Shown: piece by piece, positions 106 through 20,521 of the stretch
Numbering within the stretch: the first letter of the stretch is position 1
How the letters are laid out: every line of letters begins with the position of its first letter
NCBI GenBank assembly: GCA_029547605.1
Contig: JAKPPB010000056.1
Coordinates: 1 to 36,930, forward strand
DNA: 36,930 bases
Direction of reading: 5' to 3'
DNA from: Methanobacteriota archaeon
Lineage (GTDB): Archaea > Halobacteriota > Methanomicrobia > Methanomicrobiales > Methanospirillaceae
The notes under the pieces: generated by a model
Database searches by the model: none
Seen by the model: the letters and a program-made list of their open reading frames with translations, nothing else
What the model was told of the DNA's origin: nothing
Program-made: the position numbers and the translations under genes

Positions 106-639
106 ATGGACTCACGATACACCCGCGATACAATACGCAATATTACTTCGATCCTCATCCGGCACCCGGCGTTCCTTGGTGCAACAATCGGGATACTCGC
201 GGCATTCTCCCAGGCGCTCCTGATCAGCGCCGGTGGACCCGAAGCGTACGGGTTCTGCGTCGCGTGCCACACCCGCGACATGGTGAACGGCATGACCAAC
301 ATCATCGCAGGCACCAGCCTTGCCCTCGCGGCTATCTCCAAAAATTCCCTCCTTCCTGTCATGAGCGTGGCAGGAGTCCTCATCGGCGGATACATCTCGG
401 CCACTCTTCACCGGGAGCACCGGATTAAGAGGGGGACGAGGGTTGAGTACCTGGGATACTTCCTTGCCGGCGTTGCAGTCCTGAACCTCGCGATGGTATT
501 CGGTGGGTGCCCGTACCGGGCAGCCCTCAGGACAGGATATGGCGACCTCACCGCTATTCTCTTCATCGTGGCGATGGCTGCGGGCGTGGTCTTCGGAGCA
601 TACCTGATGCTGAAAAAGGCCGAGAAGGAGGACACCTGA
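106..639 (+). CDS. YeeE/YedE-type sulfur transport half-protein (first half)
   Basis: A 177-residue polytopic membrane protein with about four to five hydrophobic segments. It carries the two signatures of the YeeE/YedE (DUF395, sulphur transport) family: a cysteine motif GFCVACHTRD (C51, C54) after the first membrane segment and GGCPYR (C135) later. Characterised full-length members (TsuA/YeeE) import thiosulfate through a line of conserved cysteines. Members usually have about 350 residues; this gene and the next each cover one pseudo-symmetric half. Its TGA stop overlaps the next ATG, so the two halves are translationally coupled and probably form a heterodimer. The ATG at 106 has no ribosome binding site and suits a leaderless transcript. 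The substrate (thiosulfate, another sulfur species or selenium) cannot be told from sequence. Confidence 0.85.
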   Translation: MDSRYTRDTIRNITSILIRHPAFLGATIGILAAFSQALLISAGGPEAYGFCVACHTRDMVNGMTNIIAGTSLALAAISKNSLLPVMSVAGVLIGGYISATLHREHRIKRGTRVEYLGYFLAGVAVLNLAMVFGGCPYRAALRTGYGDLTAILFIVAMAAGVVFGAYLMLKKAEKEDT

Positions 640-1163
640 TGGCGACCGGAATCCTTCCCAAGGAAGCGGCAGTATTCTTTGTCCCCATCGTGACGCTTCT
701 CCTTGGGATACTCATCGGGTATCTTGCCCAGCGATCCGGCTATTGCTCGATCGGCGGGTTCCGGGACTATTTCCTCTTTCGCCATACCCGCATCCTGTCA
801 GGGTACCTCACCCTTATTGCGGCATCTTTTGTGGGGTACCTGCTCTTCTGGTTCCTGACTCCTGCCGCCATGGAGCACTTCTTCTGGGCATTCACGAGCG
901 GCCCCCTTACTCCCGTCCCCGGGGCACCCGGAGGCCTGGATACCGCTGCATATCTCATCTTCTCGATAGTCCCCGGGTTTTTTGTCGGGTTGATCGCAGT
1001 CTTCATCGGGGGCTGCCCCATCCGCCAGACCGTGATGGCCTCCGAGGGGAACTACAAGGCGGCATGGTTCTTTATCGGGATGTGTGTGGGCTCGATCCTC
1101 TTTGCAGCGATCGTCTCAGGCTGGGTCGTTGCGCTGATGAGACTGCTCGGGTTCGGGGTCTGA
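639..1163 (+). CDS. YeeE/YedE-type sulfur transport half-protein (second half)
   Basis: A 174-residue membrane protein that starts at the ATG overlapping the preceding stop. It has about five hydrophobic segments. The family signatures appear again: SGYCSIGGFRDY (C36) near the N-terminus and GGCPIRQ (C126) near the C-terminus. The GGCPxRQ form is the classic YedE/YeeE motif. With the upstream gene it makes up a complete two-repeat transporter. The downstream DsrE-like gene begins five bases after its stop, so import and relay are probably co-transcribed. A longer reading frame opens upstream at 507, but it overlaps the first half gene, so the start at 639 is preferred. Confidence 0.85.
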   Translation: MATGILPKEAAVFFVPIVTLLLGILIGYLAQRSGYCSIGGFRDYFLFRHTRILSGYLTLIAASFVGYLLFWFLTPAAMEHFFWAFTSGPLTPVPGAPGGLDTAAYLIFSIVPGFFVGLIAVFIGGCPIRQTVMASEGNYKAAWFFIGMCVGSILFAAIVSGWVVALMRLLGFGV

Positions 1164-1168
1164 TCTCC

Positions 1169-2344
1169 ATGGCCTCCTCGACCTTCCTCTTCTGCGATTC
1201 CATTTACGACGAGCGAATGCGGTGGTTTAGAGATATCATCCTGGCGTCGAATGGCACTGGCACGTCAGCAGAACCGGTTGATATCAGGATATTTCTCACC
1301 GGTGACGCCCTCTTCAGCCTTGTCGATGCACGTACACGTCCTGCCTGGAACGCGGTATCTGCCATCCCGTCTGTCCAGGTCATCGCTGACGCTGACGAGC
1401 TCCAGCTCCAGGGACTGTATGATCCGGTGGTCTCCGGGTGCTCCCATGTCCTTATCTCAGGAGCGGACCACGGTGGATTATTCTGGGAGCGCCTCGTTGC
1501 TGCCCTGAAAGATGAGTGGACGGGTACAAAGAGTGCCGCGTTTCTCCTCTGCAATTCGCCCTACATGAGCAGGGTCCCGGTGTACATGCTCCGGTTCCTC
1601 TCAGGTGTCAGATCAGCGGGTCTTTCCCCTGAACTGTATACGTACCTGGACGGAGTCCACACCCTGCACGACGGGCAACGTCCCTCGGAGTTCGAGAACA
1701 TCGGCAGGGGAGTGGCAGCACTCGCTGACTCTGCCGCCCTGGCAGGCCGCGATGCATGGTTTGCCGCCTGCTCGCGGTGTGCGACTGCGCGTGGGTACTA
1801 CCAGATGAATCCCGGGACTGGGTTCTGTGAGCCAGCCTCCTGCATCCAGGGAATCACGATCAGGCCGCTGAAGGAGATCCTTGCGCGTTTTTCGGGAGAC
1901 CACCCCATCATCTCCCATGGGGGCGGAATGACAGTTCACGGGAAGGGAGCAGGCGCCCGCATCCCTCACCTCGCTGTCTTCATTACATACCCGCCCTACT
2001 GCACCGAGTGGGCATTCGGAGGGCTCTCGCTTGCCATCGCTGCTGCGATGGGCGGCATCCGGACGACGGTCGTCTTCATCGAGGACGGCGTATATGCACT
2101 CCACGGAACCCACCAGGTCCCGGGAAACGACAAGATCTTCAATATCCAGGAGATGATCGCGGTCACGACCGATGTCGAAGGCCTCAGCTATGCAGTCCAT
2201 GTCCCGTCGCTTGCGGAGAGGGGAATTGGGATCTCCGGCGATCTCTCCCTCGTCCGGGAGGTCACGAACGACGAGCTTGCCCGCATCATGTTCCGACCCG
2301 GCCTGGAAGGCACGACCCCCGCAATGCGGATAATCTTCTTCTGA
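1169..2344 (+). CDS. Multi-domain DsrE/TusBCD-like sulfur relay protein
   Basis: A soluble 391-residue protein that appears to be a string of DsrE/DsrF-type domains. Residues 1-118 open with a beta-strand (STFLFCDS) and a domain-like DsrE pattern. Residues 120-240 contain CSRCATARGY (C201, C204), which resembles the active-site loop of DsrE/TusD (CxxCxxARG). Residues 265-391 resemble DsrF/TusC (LAVFITYPPYCTEWAFGGLS, then an EDGVYAL segment). In bacteria TusB, TusC and TusD (or DsrH, DsrF, DsrE) are separate subunits of a hexamer that passes persulfide sulfur from TusA. Here one chain could supply all three, which is inference. The first domain is the least certain. The next gene, a TusA relative, fits as its partner. 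The ATG at 1169 lies five bases after the upstream stop; a longer frame from 743 runs inside the transporter gene and is rejected. Confidence 0.75.
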   Translation: MASSTFLFCDSIYDERMRWFRDIILASNGTGTSAEPVDIRIFLTGDALFSLVDARTRPAWNAVSAIPSVQVIADADELQLQGLYDPVVSGCSHVLISGADHGGLFWERLVAALKDEWTGTKSAAFLLCNSPYMSRVPVYMLRFLSGVRSAGLSPELYTYLDGVHTLHDGQRPSEFENIGRGVAALADSAALAGRDAWFAACSRCATARGYYQMNPGTGFCEPASCIQGITIRPLKEILARFSGDHPIISHGGGMTVHGKGAGARIPHLAVFITYPPYCTEWAFGGLSLAIAAAMGGIRTTVVFIEDGVYALHGTHQVPGNDKIFNIQEMIAVTTDVEGLSYAVHVPSLAERGIGISGDLSLVREVTNDELARIMFRPGLEGTTPAMRIIFF

Positions 2345-2346
2345 CG

Positions 2347-2580
2347 ATGAGTGATGTTATGGATAATCATGAACCAAAGGATTTCACTGAACTGACCTGC
2401 ACGAACCTCATGATCAAGTTAAAGATCCTGCTCTCCAAACTCCCCACGGGCAATCAGGTCGCCTTCTTTGCAACGAGAGAGCAGGTGGACAACACCTGCG
2501 CTCCTTTCTCCGGGCAGGGATACCAGGTCTCCTGGAAACAGGAGGCAGAGAACCGGTACCTGGTCAGGATCGGAAAATAG
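2347..2580 (+). CDS. TusA/SirA-like sulfur carrier, CPxP motif altered
   Basis: A 77-residue protein with the TusA/SirA/YedF fold pattern: a strand (FTEL), a cysteine followed by a helix (C18-TNLMIKLKILLSKLP), a strand (NQVAFFAT), a second helix and a closing strand ending RYLVRIGK. TusA proteins carry persulfide on the cysteine of a CPxP motif. Here the cysteine is kept but both prolines are gone (C-T-N-L). It starts two bases after the stop of the DsrE-like gene; a second ATG at 2359 is possible. The expected role is carrier between the membrane import pair and the DsrE-like relay. Loss of the prolines may change the cysteine's reactivity or partner choice. Confidence 0.75.
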   Translation: MSDVMDNHEPKDFTELTCTNLMIKLKILLSKLPTGNQVAFFATREQVDNTCAPFSGQGYQVSWKQEAENRYLVRIGK

Positions 2581-2583
2581 CTC

Positions 2584-2606
2584 CCCTGGGAGAGATATCA
2601 CCAGGG
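2584..2606 (+). repeat. Stem-loop between the TusA-like and C_GCAxxG genes
   Basis: A perfect 6-base stem (CCCTGG with CCAGGG) encloses an 11-base loop right after the TusA-like stop codon. No T-run follows, so it is more likely an RNA-processing or stability element inside the operon than a terminator. Confidence 0.3.
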
Positions 2607-2646
2607 ACTACTGAACAGGGAAAAAGGAACAGGGAAGGAGAGAGAG

Positions 2647-3087
2647 GTGAATATGATCAGGTCAGACGAGGCTGTCGCATCCTTTTCCGCCGGGTTCACC
2701 TGTTCGGCGGCAGTATTCTCCGCGTTCTCCCGGGAACTCGGGTTAGACGTTGAGACTGCAAGAAAGATCGCATGCGGGTTCGGCGCAGGGGTATCACGGT
2801 CCGGAAATATCTGCGGGGCAGTTTCGGGTGCAATCCTCGTGATCGGCCTGAAGTACGGAAAGGCCAATGCGGGGGACGATCACGCGACCGAGAAGACCCG
2901 GACGCTTGTCCGGGAATTTCTCCGGCAGTTCACGGAACGGCATGGCTCGGTCAACTGCACTGAACTTTTGGGATGGAACCTGGCAGATCCCGGGGAATAC
3001 GAGCATGCGAGGGACGAGGGACTCTTTAAGACCAGGTGTCCAGTGTTCGTCCGGGACGCTGCGGAGATCCTCGACCGGATACTCTGA
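2647..3087 (+). CDS. C_GCAxxG_C_C family redox-active protein
   Basis: A 146-residue soluble protein with the full cysteine pattern of the C_GCAxxG_C_C family: FTCSAAVF near residue 18, a CGFGAGVSRSG stretch, then ICGAVSGA (the GCAxxG-like core), NCTELLG and a last cysteine in TRCPVFV. The family is thought to be redox-active or metal-binding; its biochemical role is not established. Start choice: GTG at 2647 has GGAG six bases upstream, while ATG at 2653 lies twelve bases away, so GTG is slightly preferred. It sits 66 bases after the TusA-like gene on the same strand, probably in the same operon, which suggests a role in sulfur or thiol redox chemistry. That link is inference. Confidence 0.85.
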   Translation: MNMIRSDEAVASFSAGFTCSAAVFSAFSRELGLDVETARKIACGFGAGVSRSGNICGAVSGAILVIGLKYGKANAGDDHATEKTRTLVREFLRQFTERHGSVNCTELLGWNLADPGEYEHARDEGLFKTRCPVFVRDAAEILDRIL

Positions 3088-6132: not shown

Positions 6133-7335
6133 ATGAAATTGCGGGATCTCCTCGACATTCCGCCCGCGATGCGCCTGATCCTCCTCCTCGGGGTGGTGAG
6201 CCTCTTTGGGGACATCGTCTACGAGGGCGCCCGGAGTGTCTCCGGCCCGTTCCTCCTCGCCCTCGGGGCATCGGCGTTTACGGTCGCGTGGATCTCGGGG
6301 CTCGGAGAGTTCATCGGCTACGGGGTCCGCATGGCATCCGGCTATGTCGCCGACCGGACCGGGAACTACTGGACGCTTGCCATCGCCGGCTACCTGATGA
6401 TCGGGGCCATCCCGTTCCTCGTCTTTGCCGGCTCCTGGCAGGCCGCCGTCGTCCTGCTCCTCGTCGAGCGGCTCGGAAAGGCAATCCGGTCGCCTGCAAA
6501 GGACGCCATCCTCTCCCATGCCGCACACAAGGTGGGGCGCGGGTGGGGGTTCGGTGTCCACGAGGCGCTGGACCAGGTCGGTGCGGTCGCCGGTCCCCTG
6601 GTATTTGCCGCATCCCTCGCGGTTTCGGGCGGCTACCGGGAGGGGTTTGCCCTCATGGCTATCCCCTTCGTCCTTCTGGTCGCATCATTGCTCCTCGCGT
6701 GGAGGAAAGTCCCCGACCCTGCCTCGCTTGAGCGGGGCAGCGAATCATCGCACCAGGAGGGCCGGAACCTGCGGGTGATGGTCCCGTATGGGGCATTCAC
6801 CGCCCTCACGATGGCAGGGTTCCTCGTCTTTCCCCTGATGGCCTACCACTTCAGCGCCGCAGGCACGGTCCCGGACGCCCAGATCCCGGTCTTCTTTGCC
6901 ATCGCGATGGCGACCGACGCCCTCTGTGCGCTTGCGCTCGGGAGGCTCTACGACCGGGCCGGCCTCGCGGTGCTCCTCCTGATCCCGGTGGCAAACATCC
7001 CCATCGCCCCCCTGGCGTTCTCGTTCGGGTACGGGGGGGCGCTTGCCGCCGCGGTCCTCTGGGGGATCTCCATGGGGGGCCAGGAGACCATCCTCCGGGC
7101 GGCGCTCGCGGACCTCACGTCCGTGAAGAAGCGGGGGTTTGCATACGGGATCTTCAACGCCCTCTACGGCGGGGCGTGGTTTGCCGGGAGCATCGTATCT
7201 GGGCTCCTCTACGAGTTCGACCTGATCGCACTCTTCTCCTATTCCATCCTGATGCAGCTCGCGGCACTCGGGGTGTTCTTCTGGCTAAGAAAGGGAGTTG
7301 GAGGTGCGGGGGGGAAGAGCCCGGTGGCAGGGTGA
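6133..7335 (+). CDS. Major facilitator superfamily transporter
   Basis: A 400-residue integral membrane protein with about eleven to twelve hydrophobic segments. The cytoplasmic loop GYVADRTGNYW after segment 2 matches MFS motif A (G-x-x-x-D-R-x-G). A hydrophilic central loop (about residues 190-215, LERGSESSHQEGRN) separates the two six-helix halves. The second half repeats the motif A theme as LGRLYDRAGL. It resembles uncharacterised archaeal and bacterial MFS proteins, so the substrate is unknown. The ATG at 6133 is supported by GGGAGGA eight bases upstream; a GTG at 6100 would add eleven residues of no clear value. The region is very G+C-rich compared with the sequence before it. It is followed by more than 300 bases without a gene. 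Confidence 0.85.
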   Translation: MKLRDLLDIPPAMRLILLLGVVSLFGDIVYEGARSVSGPFLLALGASAFTVAWISGLGEFIGYGVRMASGYVADRTGNYWTLAIAGYLMIGAIPFLVFAGSWQAAVVLLLVERLGKAIRSPAKDAILSHAAHKVGRGWGFGVHEALDQVGAVAGPLVFAASLAVSGGYREGFALMAIPFVLLVASLLLAWRKVPDPASLERGSESSHQEGRNLRVMVPYGAFTALTMAGFLVFPLMAYHFSAAGTVPDAQIPVFFAIAMATDALCALALGRLYDRAGLAVLLLIPVANIPIAPLAFSFGYGGALAAAVLWGISMGGQETILRAALADLTSVKKRGFAYGIFNALYGGAWFAGSIVSGLLYEFDLIALFSYSILMQLAALGVFFWLRKGVGGAGGKSPVAG

Positions 7336-7688
7336 GGCCGGAGCAACATCCTGCGTTCCCTTTCACTCTCCGCATCCCTACCCGGTGCGCCCTCATGAGA
7401 TGGGAATGAAAGAGGGGTGATACTCCCATGAGTACGGACGCAGCCGGGAATGCGGAAAACGATCCTCTTTTCCGGAAACAGAAAAGCCCTGCGTCATCTC
7501 ATTTGCGTAATTGCATTGATAAGCCGCTTTCATGCCAGGTCGATACACACCTCCTCATCTCTCCCATATTTTTTCGACTATAGAATACCTGATACAGGAA
7601 AGCAGGCCGGAATACCCGGGCAAGGATGCGGCACCATGCAGGTCGATCTTTCTCTCCCAGACCAGGCCCGGGAAGCAGTCGTGCCGGC
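7336..7688. other. Intergenic region with one stem-loop
   Basis: No gene is supported. A perfect 7-base stem (CGGAAAA with TTTTCCG, loop of eight) lies at 7453-7474, about 120 bases after the MFS stop. Its arms lack a following long T-run, so a terminator role is only possible. The rest shows no recognised element. Confidence 0.4.
7453..7474 (+). repeat. Stem-loop downstream of the MFS gene
   Basis: CGGAAAA at 7453-7459 pairs with TTTTCCG at 7468-7474 around an 8-base loop. It may act as a transcript end or stabiliser for the MFS mRNA. Confidence 0.3.
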
Positions 7689-7886
7689 TCACTGCCTCCC
7701 CTGGCCAAAATACCAGGTGCCGTCCTCCCGGATAAGCGGTGCCTGGTCGTGGGGGACCCGCGGGTAGAGCAGGAACACCGCCCGGCACCGGTGGTAATGG
7801 CACTCCCAGAGGCCCTTGTTGTTGATCCGGGTTACCAGCGCCGATCTGCAGACAGGGCAACAGACGAGCGGCGGGTCATCGTGCAT
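7689..7886 (-). CDS. Zinc-ribbon microprotein
   Basis: A 65-residue protein with a clear zinc-ribbon pattern: CCPVCRSALVTRINN (CPxC, residues 9-13), then WECHYHRC about 15 residues later. This four-cysteine arrangement with aromatic residues around the second pair resembles Ogr/Delta-like or rubredoxin-like knuckles. The C-terminal third (DGTWYFGQGRQ) is polar. No ribosome binding site is visible before the ATG at 7886, so it may be leaderless. It lies in a region without other genes. Function is unknown; binding to nucleic acid or protein is typical of such ribbons. Confidence 0.6.
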   Translation of the reverse strand: MHDDPPLVCCPVCRSALVTRINNKGLWECHYHRCRAVFLLYPRVPHDQAPLIREDGTWYFGQGRQ

Positions 7887-8067
7887 GCGGGGAGAGTGGT
7901 CTCAATAGGGACTACAAGATCGCCCGGGTGGGGAGTGAAAGTGTCTAAGGCCAGGCACTCTCCCGGTGCGAAGGGCCACCCGCCCGCTTCAAAAAGCCTT
8001 CTGTCTTCCGGCGATCATTCCGATATGCATAAGAGATGCACGGCGGAACCACTCCTCCAGGGAAAAA

Positions 8068-14770: not shown

Positions 14771-17700
14771 GTGAAGCCGTATTTGATTTTTACCATTTTT
14801 CTCTTGCTGATTTTAAGTTCTTCCGCACAGGTATCCGCAGAAGGGCTGGCCTGGAAATTCAGGTCCGATCTCTCTAATGCCGGAGTCTATGACGACGGAG
14901 GGACAAGGCCTGAGGGCGGGCTGCGCTGGAGATTTCCGACCGGGGATGACGTGGCTTCCAGCCCGGCGGTCGTTGACGGGGTTGTGTATATCGGCGGACA
15001 CGCGTTCGACGCACAGACCGGGGAACGCCTCTGGTGGTTCAGGGAGGATTATATCGACCAATCCAGCCCCGCAGTTGTGGACGGTATCGTCTACTTCGGC
15101 AGCTATGATGGCAAACTCTTTGCAGTCGATGCAGAGACTGGGACAGCCATCTGGAACTTTACCACGGGAGCGGGTATCCACTCCAGCCCGGCGGTGGCAG
15201 ATGGGATTGTCTACTTCGGCAGCCAGGATCACAATGTATACGCGCTTGATGCCACGAGCGGGGAACTGGTCTGGAACTATACGACTGGGTCGTCTGTATT
15301 CTCCAGCCCCGCGGTCGCAAATGGGACCGTCTATATCGGGAGTTGTGACAAGAATGTCTATGCACTTGATGCGCAATCCGGTGAACTGGTCTGGAGTTAT
15401 ACCACGGGTGGAATGGTCTATTCCAGTCCCGCCGTCGTTGACGGGTATGTCTATATCGGGAGCTTTGATGGCCTCCTCTACGTCATCGATGCGGACACGG
15501 GAGATCTCTCCTGGACTTATGATGCAGGAGGAGCAATTTACTCGAGTCCCGCAGTAGCAGACGGGATCGTCTATTTTGGCTGCAGGAACGGGTTCCTGTA
15601 CGCACTCAATACCGGAATACCGGGTTACCGGTGGAGCTATCACGCGGGTGATCGTGTTGATTCCAGCCCGGCGGTGGCAAACGGGGTCGTATATTTCACA
15701 AGCATTGATTATTCCGGAAAAAGCGGTCTCTACGCACTCGGTGCGGCAACCGGTGAGCGTCTGTGGAAGTTCAATATCACGTCTGGAACGCGGTCGAGCC
15801 CTGCTGTTTCCGACGGAACAGTGTATTTTGGTAGTGCCGACATGGGCAGTGTCTTTGCGATCGGCGCATCTCCCGAGACCGCCACGCCATACGACGATTT
15901 CAATGACAACGTGTGCAATACCACTCTATGGGATATCATCGAATACGGCGGCCCGTATGTCAATGAGACGAACCAGCGGCTGGAAATTACCATACCCGCC
16001 GATTCATCCGGCGACACCTTTTATGCAGGGTATGTGAGCACGCACGCCCTCCGGGGTGATTTTGATATCCAGGTCGATTACCACCTCCTCGCATGGCCGG
16101 AGAACAACGGCGTGAGGATGGGCCTCTGGATCGAAAAGGCCCCTTATACCTACACCGTCGAGCGTGCAAGTTACGGAACCTCGGATGGTTTTACCGCAGG
16201 GGATCACCATACGACGAATTTCGAGGACTCGATCCTCATCTCCCCGACAGGCGATACCGAAGGGAAACTGCGGCTGGTACGGACAGGGTCCCTCTTTGAG
16301 GGGTATTTCTTCAACGAGACTTCCGGGGACTGGGTCCTTTCGCAGCGCTTCCAGGGCGGATCCAGTTCTGCCGGGGAAGTCACGTTCATGCTGAAGGCAT
16401 GGAGCCATGACTACGCGTTCTCGGACGACCTGGTAGTCGTTGCCTTTGATAATTTCGTGATCAACAAGGGGACAGTCGTCGTCCCGGGTGTTACTCCTCC
16501 GGCTGGAGTCACCGGTCTTGCGAACGTGACCTTCCAGCCAAACCTCATCCACTGGACCTGGAATGACCCGGGCGACCCGGACTTCGACCACGTCATGGTC
16601 TTCCTTGACGGGGTGTTCCAGAAGAACGTGACAAAAGGGGTGCAGGCCTGGACTGCAAAGGCCCTTCTCCCGTCGACTGCGTACACCATCGGGACACGGA
16701 CTGTCGGCGAGAGGGGCGCGATCAACGGGACCTGGGTGAACCACACCGCCACGACGGGCAGTCTCCTGGTCACGCACCTCGACCCTCCGGATGTCTTGGC
16801 GGGGGGGCCTGAGTTTACCCTCGATGTCCTTGGATCAGGGTTTGGAGCGGCCTCCCGTGTCCTCTGGAATGACGTTGAGCAGGAGACTCAGTTCCATGAC
16901 TCAGGCCGCCTCTCGATCAATGTGTCGGCAGATATGATCATCCGGCCGGCTGCCGTGAACATTTCAGTGCATGACCACACGACGGGCGAAGTCTCCAACC
17001 CGGTGATGTTCCGCGTGAGGGACCAGTCCTCAGGAGCCCGGGCCTGGAAGTTCCGCTCCGACTCCGCAAACTCTGGAACATACGATAACGGCGGGATGAG
17101 ACCAGGAAACGAACTGCTCTGGAAGTATATGACAGAGAGCTATTACGGGTCCACCCCGGCGGTGGTGGATGCCGTTGTCTATGTATGCGGGATCTACGAT
17201 ATCAATGCCATCGACGCCATTACGGGAACTCTCCTGTGGAACTCACCTGAAGGAGGGGGATGGTCAAGTCCTGCCATTGTCGACAATATCGTCTATGTGG
17301 GAAGCAACGATTATAATATCTCTGCCCTAGACGCCTCAACCGGAGGTGTGATCTGGAAATACCGGACAGGGTCAATCGTATACTCGAGCCCTTCGGTTGC
17401 CGATGGCATCGTGTATGCCGGGAGCCGGGATGGGAACCTCTATGCACTCGATGCGGCCACTGGCACCCTCCTCTGGAATTATCCTACCGGCGACCAGGTG
17501 AGATCGAGCCCTGCCGTGGCAGATGGAATTGTGTACTTTGCGAGCACTGACTGTAACCTCTATGCGCTCGATGCGCGGACGGGAGCACTCATCTGGAAGT
17601 ACACGACCGCTGGTGAACTGTATTCGACGCCCGCAGTCGCAGACGGTGTCGTCTATATCCCGGGAACTGACGACACACTCTACGCACTAGATGCCTCAAC

Positions 17701-20521
17701 TGGGGCTGTCCTCTGGACATACCCTGTTGTGACAGGGTGGAATGACTCCTGCCTGGCGGTTGCTGACGGGGTGGTATACATCGGCAGCGAGGACGGCACA
17801 CTCTATGCCCTCGATGCGGGAACCGGGGACCTCATCTGGATGTATGCAACGGGTGAACCTGTACGGTCGAGCCCCTCGGTGGCAAATGATGTGGTGTATG
17901 TCGGGATCTCTTCCGGAACAGTCTATGCGCTCGATGCGGACACCGGATCGGTTCTCTGGACGTATACCACGAATGAAAATGGATTCTCAAGCCCTGCCAT
18001 TGCACATGGTGTCCTGTATATCCAGGGACTGAAGGGATACCTCTATGCGCTCACCACGTTGCCGGACAAGCCGCCGGAGAACGTGAGCGATCTTCATGCA
18101 ACTGCCAGGAACGGGGCAGAGATCACATGGGCCTGGACCGATCCCCGAACGCTTGGGTTCTCCCATGTCATGGTCTTCCTGGACGGCGTGTTCCAGGAGA
18201 ATGTGACAGCAGGGAAAGAGACCTGGACCGCCACGGGCCTCTCGCCTTCGACTGCCTACACAATCGGGATCAGGACAGCTGGTGTGAACGGGCTGGTCAA
18301 CGCGACGCTCGTGACCAGCACGGCGGTCACAGGGACCCTCTCGGTCTCTCATCTCGATCCCGCGAGTGTGGTGGAGGACAGCCCTGCATTCACGCTCGAT
18401 GTGCATGGGACCGGGTTTGCCCCCACCTGCAGGATCCTCTGGAATGGAGTGGAACAGCCCACATCCTATATCCAGCCGGACCGCATCCGCATGGAAGTGC
18501 CAGCGGAGCATGTCGCGCACTCGCGACGGGTGACGATCGTGGTCAATGACCCTGTATCCGGGGAATCCTCAAACGCCGTGATACTCCCGGTCACCGACAA
18601 CCCCGCCACAGCGAAAGGCCGGAAATTCCGGTCCGACCTGCAGAATACCGGCGTGTACGATGATGGGGGGAGACGGCCTGTCCCCACCCTCCTCTGGACC
18701 TTCCAGACAGGGGCGCCGGTGACATCCAGCCCATCGGTGGCAGACGGTGTGCTCTACGTGGGAAGCCATGACAGGAACCTCTATGCACTGGACGCAAGAA
18801 CGGGAACCTTCCTCTGGAAGTATGACACCATGGAGCGGAACGACTTTGTCAGTTCCAGTCCTGCAGTCTCGAACGGCGTCGTCTATATTGGCGGGATGAA
18901 GACCAAGATCCATGCCCTTGATGCGTATTGCGGCGAACTCCTCTGGAAATACAAGCTGCCAATACGCACCACCGTGAGGACCGGAGTGAGTTCCAGTCCT
19001 GCTGTTGCAAACGGCGTTGTATACATCGCAAACATGGATGGAAACCTCTATGCATTCAACGAGGAGACGGGGGCTCTCATTTGGAATTATCAATTCCCTG
19101 GCTCAGCATATGGGGATAATTGTGTCTTTTCCAGCCCGGCCGTTTCAGACGGCGTAGTCTATATAATAGACTACGAGGGGAACCTTTATGCACTCGACGC
19201 ATCCACAGGAGCGCTTCTCTGGAATACCAGTTTTGGAAGTGCCTTGGGGACGTATGGCAGCCCTTCCGTAGTGAACGGAGTCGTTTTTTATGGCGGAGGG
19301 AGGGATAATACACTCCACGCGCTCGATGCGCTCACTGGGGATGTCCTCTGGGATTATACCACCTGGGGAAGTGTGAGTTACAGCCCCGCGGTTGCCGAGG
19401 GAGTCGTCTATTTCGGGAGTCGTGACAATAACACGTATGCGCTCAACGCGTCAACCGGCGCTCTCCTCTGGAACTTCACCACCGGAAACAGTGTATATTC
19501 GAGCCCTGCGGTCGCAAACGGTGTGGTGTATGTGGGGAGTTACGACAACAACACCTATGCCCTCGATGCCTCTACGGGAGCACTCCTCTGGAAGTTCGAC
19601 GTGGGGGGCAGCGTGATGTCCAGCCCGGCGCTCGCCAATGGAGTGGTCTATATTGGCAGTGGCGACGGCAAGGTCTATGCAATCGGGTCGCTCCCGCTCG
19701 ATCCTCCTATCGCTGGCTTCTCGGCCAGCGTGACCTCCGGCAATGCCCCTGTGGCAGTGCGCTTTACCGATACTTCGACCGGCGTCGTCACGGCCAGGCA
19801 ATGGGACTTTGGCGACGGAACGACGGCGTGGGCAAACGAGACCCTGGATGTCTCACACACGTATACCTTCCCAGGGTCCTTCACGGTCTCCCTGACGGCT
19901 GCAAATCCTGATGCACAGGCTACCACCACGAAGGCGGATTACATCCAGGTCAGCCCGTCAGGCAGGCCACCCGCAGCGTGGTTCACCGCCACCCCGATGT
20001 CCGGATACGGCCCGCTTTCAGTCAGGTTCACCGACCGGACGAAGGGCACACCCACTGCATGGCGATGGGACTTTGGGGATGGGAACACCTCAAATGAGCA
20101 GAACCCGGTGCACACCTACGCCACCCCCGGGACCTACACGCCGATGCTTACTGCGTTCAATTCTGGCGGGAGTAGCGTATATACATCGTTCGTATGGGTA
20201 CGAACAAAGCCCGTGGTCCCGACATTCACTCCCACCCCGACCATCACCCCGAAGCCCACAATCCCCCCGGTCCCCGGGTTCCCCCCGATCGCGTTCTTTT
20301 CGATGAACAAGAGTTTCGGGTCTGCTCCCCTGGCAGTCCAGTTCAATGACATGTCGTTCCGTGGTCCGACCTCCTGGGAATGGGACTTCGGTGACGGGGA
20401 AACATCGAATTTCAGGAACCCTGTCCATACCTTCGCACACGCGGGGACCTATGCAGTGTCGCTTTCGGTGGAGAATGCCAACGGAAGGAGCACCACTTCC
20501 AGGAACGTGTACGTGCGGTGA
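14771..20521 (+). CDS. Giant secreted PQQ-propeller/FN3/IPT/PKD surface protein
   Basis: A 1916-residue exported protein. A signal peptide (residues 1-24) is followed by three PQQ-like propeller modules that start at about residues 28, 759 and 1284, each opened by a W/R-K-F-R-S-D segment. Each module has eight repeats of the form SSPAV.DG.VY.GS.D...YALDA.TG...W, so three eight-bladed propellers are expected. Module 1 is followed by a lectin-like/DUF1349-like domain (about 374-570). FN3-like (about 578-660) and IPT-like (about 664-750) domains link modules 1 and 2; a similar pair (about 1102-1275) links modules 2 and 3. Three PKD domains (about 1645, 1733, 1838 to the end) with a TPTPTITPKP linker complete it. 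It lacks a membrane anchor at the C-terminus. GTG at 14771 has AGGAAGGTGG just upstream. Likely roles are surface layer, adhesion or glycan binding; true PQQ-dependent dehydrogenase activity is unlikely. Confidence 0.9.
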   Translation: MKPYLIFTIFLLLILSSSAQVSAEGLAWKFRSDLSNAGVYDDGGTRPEGGLRWRFPTGDDVASSPAVVDGVVYIGGHAFDAQTGERLWWFREDYIDQSSPAVVDGIVYFGSYDGKLFAVDAETGTAIWNFTTGAGIHSSPAVADGIVYFGSQDHNVYALDATSGELVWNYTTGSSVFSSPAVANGTVYIGSCDKNVYALDAQSGELVWSYTTGGMVYSSPAVVDGYVYIGSFDGLLYVIDADTGDLSWTYDAGGAIYSSPAVADGIVYFGCRNGFLYALNTGIPGYRWSYHAGDRVDSSPAVANGVVYFTSIDYSGKSGLYALGAATGERLWKFNITSGTRSSPAVSDGTVYFGSADMGSVFAIGASPETATPYDDFNDNVCNTTLWDIIEYGGPYVNETNQRLEITIPADSSGDTFYAGYVSTHALRGDFDIQVDYHLLAWPENNGVRMGLWIEKAPYTYTVERASYGTSDGFTAGDHHTTNFEDSILISPTGDTEGKLRLVRTGSLFEGYFFNETSGDWVLSQRFQGGSSSAGEVTFMLKAWSHDYAFSDDLVVVAFDNFVINKGTVVVPGVTPPAGVTGLANVTFQPNLIHWTWNDPGDPDFDHVMVFLDGVFQKNVTKGVQAWTAKALLPSTAYTIGTRTVGERGAINGTWVNHTATTGSLLVTHLDPPDVLAGGPEFTLDVLGSGFGAASRVLWNDVEQETQFHDSGRLSINVSADMIIRPAAVNISVHDHTTGEVSNPVMFRVRDQSSGARAWKFRSDSANSGTYDNGGMRPGNELLWKYMTESYYGSTPAVVDAVVYVCGIYDINAIDAITGTLLWNSPEGGGWSSPAIVDNIVYVGSNDYNISALDASTGGVIWKYRTGSIVYSSPSVADGIVYAGSRDGNLYALDAATGTLLWNYPTGDQVRSSPAVADGIVYFASTDCNLYALDARTGALIWKYTTAGELYSTPAVADGVVYIPGTDDTLYALDASTGAVLWTYPVVTGWNDSCLAVADGVVYIGSEDGTLYALDAGTGDLIWMYATGEPVRSSPSVANDVVYVGISSGTVYALDADTGSVLWTYTTNENGFSSPAIAHGVLYIQGLKGYLYALTTLPDKPPENVSDLHATARNGAEITWAWTDPRTLGFSHVMVFLDGVFQENVTAGKETWTATGLSPSTAYTIGIRTAGVNGLVNATLVTSTAVTGTLSVSHLDPASVVEDSPAFTLDVHGTGFAPTCRILWNGVEQPTSYIQPDRIRMEVPAEHVAHSRRVTIVVNDPVSGESSNAVILPVTDNPATAKGRKFRSDLQNTGVYDDGGRRPVPTLLWTFQTGAPVTSSPSVADGVLYVGSHDRNLYALDARTGTFLWKYDTMERNDFVSSSPAVSNGVVYIGGMKTKIHALDAYCGELLWKYKLPIRTTVRTGVSSSPAVANGVVYIANMDGNLYAFNEETGALIWNYQFPGSAYGDNCVFSSPAVSDGVVYIIDYEGNLYALDASTGALLWNTSFGSALGTYGSPSVVNGVVFYGGGRDNTLHALDALTGDVLWDYTTWGSVSYSPAVAEGVVYFGSRDNNTYALNASTGALLWNFTTGNSVYSSPAVANGVVYVGSYDNNTYALDASTGALLWKFDVGGSVMSSPALANGVVYIGSGDGKVYAIGSLPLDPPIAGFSASVTSGNAPVAVRFTDTSTGVVTARQWDFGDGTTAWANETLDVSHTYTFPGSFTVSLTAANPDAQATTTKADYIQVSPSGRPPAAWFTATPMSGYGPLSVRFTDRTKGTPTAWRWDFGDGNTSNEQNPVHTYATPGTYTPMLTAFNSGGSSVYTSFVWVRTKPVVPTFTPTPTITPKPTIPPVPGFPPIAFFSMNKSFGSAPLAVQFNDMSFRGPTSWEWDFGDGETSNFRNPVHTFAHAGTYAVSLSVENANGRSTTSRNVYVR

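Follow-up and report, generated by a model that had tools for sequence, protein, structure and literature searches.

Results

The sulfur locus and its gene order

In this study we analysed a stretch of DNA of 36,930 nucleotides, called the window below, which comprises positions 1 to 36,930 (forward strand) of contig JAKPPB010000056.1 in GenBank assembly GCA_029547605.1, from an archaeon of the Methanospirillaceae, and within it a group of genes with the putative function of importing and relaying sulfur. The host genome has a size of 2.26 Mb and its nearest named relatives are metagenome-assembled genomes of Methanolinea. The contig begins 105 bases upstream of the start of yeeA, and the genes are arranged as follows:

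106-639, + strand: yeeA, half-size YeeE/YedE membrane protein, N-terminal half (177 amino acids)
639-1163, + strand: yeeB, half-size YeeE/YedE membrane protein, C-terminal half (174 amino acids)
1169-2344, + strand: DsrE-family fusion with a PF02635 match (391 amino acids)
2347-2580, + strand: TusA-like sulfur carrier, by predicted fold (77 amino acids)
2647-3087, + strand: C_GCAxxG_C_C redox-family protein, PF09719 and TIGR01909 (146 amino acids)

The original prediction, made from the letters of the window, was of a five-gene operon at 106-3087, and the five genes do lie head to tail, tightly among the first four: yeeA and yeeB overlap by 1 base, and gaps of 5 and 2 bases separate yeeB from the fusion and the fusion from the TusA-like gene. 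The gap between the TusA-like and C_GCAxxG_C_C genes, taken from the coordinates, is 66 bases. The gene families named there (two YeeE halves, a multi-domain DsrE protein, a TusA-like carrier and a C_GCAxxG_C_C protein) were also recovered, the TusA-like carrier through its predicted fold and not through a Pfam cut-off; gene order and families are directly established. When the five-gene order was looked for in related genomes, the core of yeeA, yeeB, DsrE fusion and TusA-like gene was found intact in 17 of 17 loci of its group, in the same order and with tight spacing, whereas the fifth gene adjoined this core in two of the 17 only, the window and locus L040, and was therefore rejected as a core member. 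Since order and tight spacing are kept in related loci, the order of the four genes is not a matter of chance, and we infer that yeeA to the TusA-like gene form one transcription unit, with the spacing kept across relatives in favour of co-transcription.

Two halves of a putative YeeE-family transporter

Both membrane proteins barely pass the PF04143 cut-off of 27 bits (yeeA 27.0, yeeB 28.9). They cover complementary parts of TIGR04112, yeeA with 62.9 bits at model positions 4-134 and yeeB with 74.5 bits at positions 186-304, under a cut-off of 200 bits that handicaps half-size proteins against a full-length model. Assignment to this family calls for a score over the cut-off together with selD in the genome, a combination that neither half shows; no SelD over the family cut-off was detected in the host genome by a search that put two controls, apparently of the M. 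jannaschii and E. coli class, over it. The score of yeeB against the TsuA family model was 24.5 bits, well below its TIGR04112 score, and yeeA aligns with the TsuA structures 6leo and 8k1r.

Cysteine conservation is directly observed in 23 sequences, with C51, C54 and C135 invariant in yeeA (motifs FCVACH and GGCPYR) and C36 and C126 invariant in yeeB (motifs GYCSIGG-type and GGCPIR), the latter protein having four strong hydrophobic segments. Two cysteines of TsuA are essential, and Cys91 and Cys293 have been described as conserved pore cysteines in GGC (PMC11582611). The pore cysteines of YeeE/YedE have their counterparts in C135 of yeeA and C126 of yeeB, both in GGC motifs, the correspondence being drawn from the motif and from that description.

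A TusA-like carrier without CPxP

The 77-residue protein scores 12.5 bits against PF01206 (TusA) and does not reach the cut-off of 28.6. The CPxP motif is replaced by LTCTNLMI, with CTNL in all 23 aligned TusA-like proteins, and Cys18 is invariant in these 23 as well as in five distant copies of family f6. The AlphaFold2 model (predicted local distance difference test score, pLDDT, 88.6) places C18 where the first helix begins, and its best Foldseek matches were SirA-like 3hz7, TusA 3lvj_C and TsuA-TsuB 8j4c_A (probability 1.00, template modelling score 0.71-0.72, E 0.002-0.03); as modelled, then, the protein has the TusA fold and carries a cysteine in the active-site position. No classic TusA over the family cut-off was found elsewhere in the host genome, and in genus g3 a classic TusA gene (PF01206 50.1 bits) occupies the space of about 300 bases before the fusion.

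A fused DsrE-family protein

The fusion, which is the sole DsrE gene of the host genome, matches PF02635 with 48.9 bits (cut-off 22.7) and divides into an N-terminal domain (about residues 1-118), a DsrE/TusD-like middle domain (about 119-245) carrying C201-x-x-C204, and a DsrF/TusC-like C-terminal domain (about 262-391). The identity of two of the three domains is directly established, as the middle domain specifically matches stand-alone DsrE genes (hhalign 96.7-97.6%) and the C-terminal domain stand-alone DsrF genes (96.6-97.6%), the latter also matching 2hy5_B by sequence (E 0.007). Foldseek of the fusion model returned 2d1p_E and 2hy5_B with probability 1.00 and weak E-values, and the AlphaFold model has low confidence in the middle domain (mean pLDDT 69). 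The N-terminal domain gave no significant hhalign match to DsrH of L094 and L095, to E. coli TusB or to PDB chains; the model shows alternating strands and helices, and judged by this topology the domain is probably DsrH/TusB-like. The stand-alone DsrE and DsrF genes belong to other archaeal members of the phylum sample, and at L094 they stand in the order DsrH-like, DsrE, DsrF, which is that suggested for the fusion.

Cys201 and Cys204 are present in 23 of 23 YeeE-linked fusions, versus 9/12 and 3/12 of the other fusions. In the fusion tree the group of the window forms one clade (100/100), and the deepest branches of the other side include copies linked to formylmethanofuran dehydrogenase (Fwd). 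In one genome (G017:C1:845291-846533) the fusion is present as two open reading frames, covering model positions 1-275 and 281-411 and broken between the DsrE-like and DsrF-like parts.

Distribution and Fwd neighbourhoods in relatives

Across the order, 31 of 150 genomes have the YeeE pair and 31 have the TusA-like gene, with 30 shared; the two non-shared genomes are accounted for by one weak fragmentary match and one match at a contig edge. The DsrE fusion accompanies both in family f1, but genus g24 of family f6 lacks it. Because transporter and TusA-like carrier nearly always co-occur and the fusion is missing in g24, the first two make up the more robust module, with the fusion as an extra part. 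DsrC/TusE was detected in none of nine genomes (the host and eight relatives), the E. coli control being positive, and DsrC was set aside as acceptor on this ground.

Distances to FwdB were counted over 39 genomes. In 12 of 30 genomes YeeB and FwdB are no more than 12 kb apart, against 0.87 expected, and DsrHEF fusions free of YeeE are as close to FwdB at 11 of 16 places, against 0.43 expected, these counts being inflated by the relatedness of the Fwd-linked genomes, which are not independent, and some cases being hidden by contig ends. The neighbourhood statistics are direct observations, and the linkage is seen in families f1, f2, f5 and f6; FdhD-like, cysteine-desulfurase-like, MoeA or ModABC genes are often present there as well. 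One stretch, L081, contains ModA, ModC, DsrHEF, FwdG-like, FwdD, FwdB, FwdA, FwdC, SagB, FdhD and MoeA-like genes, and YeeE-free DsrHEF paralogs often stand directly 3' of fwd genes and a SagB-type gene. In g3, one or two formylmethanofuran dehydrogenase operons are found near the YeeE-TusA-DsrHEF-TusA-like genes, and several genomes have BadF-type ATPase, HgdB-type, C_GCAxxG_C_C and OsmC genes nearby, with cysteine-desulfurase-like and sulfite-reductase-like genes upstream. In f6 a cysteine-desulfurase-like gene and an FdhD-like gene, the latter below the FdhD cut-off, precede the YeeE pair, which is followed by TusA, TusA-like, OsmC, C_GCAxxG_C_C, sulfite-reductase-like and Fwd genes.

In several genomes the gene immediately behind fwdC encodes a SagB-family dehydrogenase (L081:14130-14876 and relatives, cluster 12), and it often precedes DsrHEF. 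A BadF/BcrA-type ATPase and an HgdB-type protein (PF06050) occur near YeeE/DsrHEF (L076:9754-11717; L080:1904-3064 and 7196-7975), a pair that resembles a double-cubane cluster protein and its activator. Near the YeeE genes of g3 and f6 there recurs a conserved protein, about 190 amino acids long and without a Pfam match (cluster 15; L076:5769-6344, L121:662-1249, L123:9413-9988).

The upstream element, the fifth gene and other content of the window

One further feature lies before the genes:

44-59, + strand: operator-like imperfect palindrome TCACATAAGAGCATAA, about 62 bases before the yeeA start, beside an AT-rich TATA-like stretch

The family consensus of this palindrome is GCNCATATGNGC, and an exact YCNCATAWGNGCATAA match occurs once in the window, at the palindrome itself. 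In 13 of 15 upstream regions the palindrome stands at -62 to -72 before yeeA and matches 9-12 of 12 consensus positions, a consensus derived from the same sequences on which it was scored, so that the shuffle values are illustrative. The steady position of this candidate operator is suggestive only, and would fit one regulated promoter before the four genes.

The C_GCAxxG_C_C protein scores 113.6 bits against PF09719 (cut-off 27) and 98.7 bits against TIGR01909 (cut-off 47.4), and more distant members of its family occur near the module in g3 and f6. The L040 copy (7460-7860 and beyond) has a broken frame, through decay or an assembly error. An RNA hairpin in the gap between the TusA-like and C_GCAxxG_C_C genes was no better than shuffles (z -0.88). 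Elsewhere in the window, an open reading frame of 1916 amino acids (14771-20521) has a signal-like N terminus, many repeated beta-propeller-like units and PKD-like domains, apparently in three similar blocks as judged by eye.

Discussion

The idea of an import-and-relay unit in a methanogen carries over to a conserved unit of four genes, which encode the split YeeE, the multi-domain DsrE protein and the TusA-like carrier. We propose that YeeA and YeeB would form one transporter, that this transporter would import a sulfane-sulfur compound (thiosulfate, polysulfide or similar), and that on the cytoplasmic side the TusA-like protein would accept the sulfur on its Cys18, in the way that TsuB serves TsuA. 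The fused protein, DsrH(?)-DsrE-DsrF, would be the one-chain counterpart of the TusBCD/DsrEFH trimer, receiving sulfur on Cys201 with Cys204 beside it, and would then pass it as a persulfide to a final acceptor other than DsrC/TusE. Transport, persulfide transfer and the direction of that transfer are what we infer here, and import and relay of sulfane sulfur we consider probable.

The combination of YeeE, TusA and TusBCD-type proteins had been implied to be new, yet its parts have been described together in bacteria: the YTD cluster of Desulfobacterota and cable bacteria has yeeE/yedE and tusA together with a DsrE-like gene whose two neighbours are now identified with it as dsrEFH type II, and archaeal copies are reported to adjoin sulfate-reduction genes (PMC13293266). 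The two loci share a YeeE-family transporter, a TusA-type carrier and a DsrEFH-type sulfurtransferase side by side, with one key cysteine in the DsrE part. In contrast to the YTD cluster, the present locus has YeeE split into two genes, the DsrE- and DsrF-like parts fused with a third domain, a carrier without CPxP and no DsrC detected, and its relatives adjoin Fwd and molybdenum or tungsten (Mo/W) genes, not dsr genes. The locus is thus a rearranged version of a known cluster and not an unprecedented combination. What is new is the placement of the transporter module and of DsrE-fusion paralogs beside Fwd genes in other Methanomicrobiales, far above chance; we found no description in the open-access literature of a methanogen form of the YTD cluster or of its link to Fwd.

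The single parts have their own precedents. Half-size YeeE pairs are known as PmpAB, two genes that each correspond to one half of a full YeeE (PMC11582611), and like them yeeA and yeeB are adjacent and have a conserved GGC cysteine each; unlike them, they encode 174-177 amino acids instead of about 130, run from N-half to C-half and are followed by sulfur-relay genes. The pairing of a transporter with a TusA-fold partner recalls TsuA-TsuB (YeeE-YeeD; 8j4c/8k1r, PMC11073785), with the TusA-like protein predicted to fold like the TsuB part, although here the transporter is split, the sequence similarity weak and a DsrE fusion added. With TusBCD/DsrEFH (2d1p, 2hy5) the fusion shares a DsrE-like domain with an active-site cysteine and a DsrF-like domain, but it is a single chain, its N-terminal domain is DsrH-like by topology only, and the TusE/DsrC partner was not detected.

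A complete route from imported sulfur to a target had also been suggested; this does not follow from the window, which shows no target, and DsrC/TusE, the usual end acceptor, was not detected in the nine genomes searched; a target is suggested by the gene neighbourhoods of relatives only. The leading acceptor would be the sulfur supply of Mo/W-bis-pterin enzymes, chiefly the sulfido ligand of Fwd or formate dehydrogenase. To our knowledge, the route by which this ligand reaches the Mo/W centre of Fwd is not established. The target is attractive because Fwd bears a sulfido ligand on Mo/W (PMC11656701), because E. coli formate dehydrogenases receive the same ligand from FdhD with IscS (PMC12140954), and because DsrC/TusE was not detected. 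The likeness to IscS-FdhD lies in the proposed end use and in the FdhD or FdhD-like neighbours of some relatives; any contact of the DsrE fusion or the TusA-like protein with such an enzyme is conjectural. If import and relay are granted, a Mo/W target has at best an even chance, and import and relay together with that target is a tentative reading with the balance against it.

Several observations weigh against this interpretation. The curated family that comes closest to the YeeE halves is TIGR04112, a putative selenium transporter, and not TsuA, the TusA-like protein lacks CPxP, the N-terminal domain of the fusion had no significant sequence match, and methanogens of this kind live in sulfide and may not need to import sulfane sulfur. 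The operon is near Fwd in none of eight genomes of the window's own genus, the two Fwd loci of the host genome are without sulfur-relay genes, the genomes behind the Fwd counts are related, and three Fwd-linked DsrHEF paralogs (L019, L023 and L026) have S, H and H in place of Cys201; judging from these replacements, some Fwd-linked paralogs may act otherwise than via Cys201 and may not be sulfurtransferases of the usual kind. An FdhD-family gene is present in 39 of 39 genomes, and therefore sulfuration might equally run without the operon. Sulfur carriers are widely shared, so that a neighbourhood is no proof of a target. Because of the 0/8 in its own genus, the Fwd loci without relay genes and the Fwd-linked fusions without Cys201, a Mo/W target for the operon of the window is argued from its kin. 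On the whole, we give an even chance to import and relay with the acceptor left undecided and Mo/W enzymes leading on the neighbourhood evidence in relatives.

Among the other explanations, delivery of sulfur to general pools (Fe-S clusters, tRNA 2-thiouridine, cysteine, homocysteine) survives best, as the transporter, the TusA-like and the TusBCD-like parts are those of the assimilation and tRNA pathways of E. coli (TsuA/TsuB, TusABCDE). We nevertheless regard it as rather unlikely: the last Tus carrier, TusE/DsrC, was not detected, an operon in about one fifth of the genomes of the order (31/150) is a poor fit to a general need, and relatives tie the module to Fwd and pterin-cofactor genes instead. 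The stronger form of our proposal, that the YeeE-TusA-DsrHEF line serves solely to supply sulfur to, and to sulfurate, formylmethanofuran dehydrogenase, the Mo/W enzyme with which the conversion of CO2 to methane begins, taking the role of IscS and FdhD with the fused DsrHEF as terminal sulfurtransferase, is in our judgement unlikely. In a dissimilatory or detoxifying role, modelled on the YTD clusters of cable bacteria and sulfur disproportionators, the unit would move sulfane sulfur either to use it in redox reactions or to clear reactive sulfur, and its redox partners would be the C_GCAxxG_C_C and sulfite-reductase-like proteins. The parts list is identical to that of the YTD cluster (PMC13293266), and g3 and f6 have sulfite-reductase-like, OsmC and C_GCAxxG_C_C genes in the same stretch, but such a role appears quite improbable, with no DsrC detected, no dsrAB-type operon in neighbourhoods of 13-17 kb (DsrAB was not searched genome-wide) and these neighbours missing from the locus in the window's own genus. 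Finally, a selenium route, with a selenium compound imported by the YeeE halves and carried by the TusA-like and DsrE proteins, is very unlikely, for although TIGR04112 is the best NCBIfam match of both halves, well over TsuA, and TusAD transcripts and yedE of Methanococcus maripaludis are up on selenium depletion (PMC11097638), the failure to find selD over the cut-off lowers it, M. maripaludis with yedE deleted showed no clear phenotype in selenium transport (PMC11097638), and the TIGR04112 scores stay under the cut-off even with both halves summed.

With this locus, YTD-like clusters reach into the methanogens. Should the neighbourhood signal be a functional one, it would provide named candidate genes for the sulfido-ligand step of Fwd that can be tested genetically in cultivable Methanomicrobiales, and even if it does not, a one-chain DsrEF(H) protein together with a split YeeE and a TusA lacking CPxP would be a compact system for the handover of sulfur from transporter to relay.

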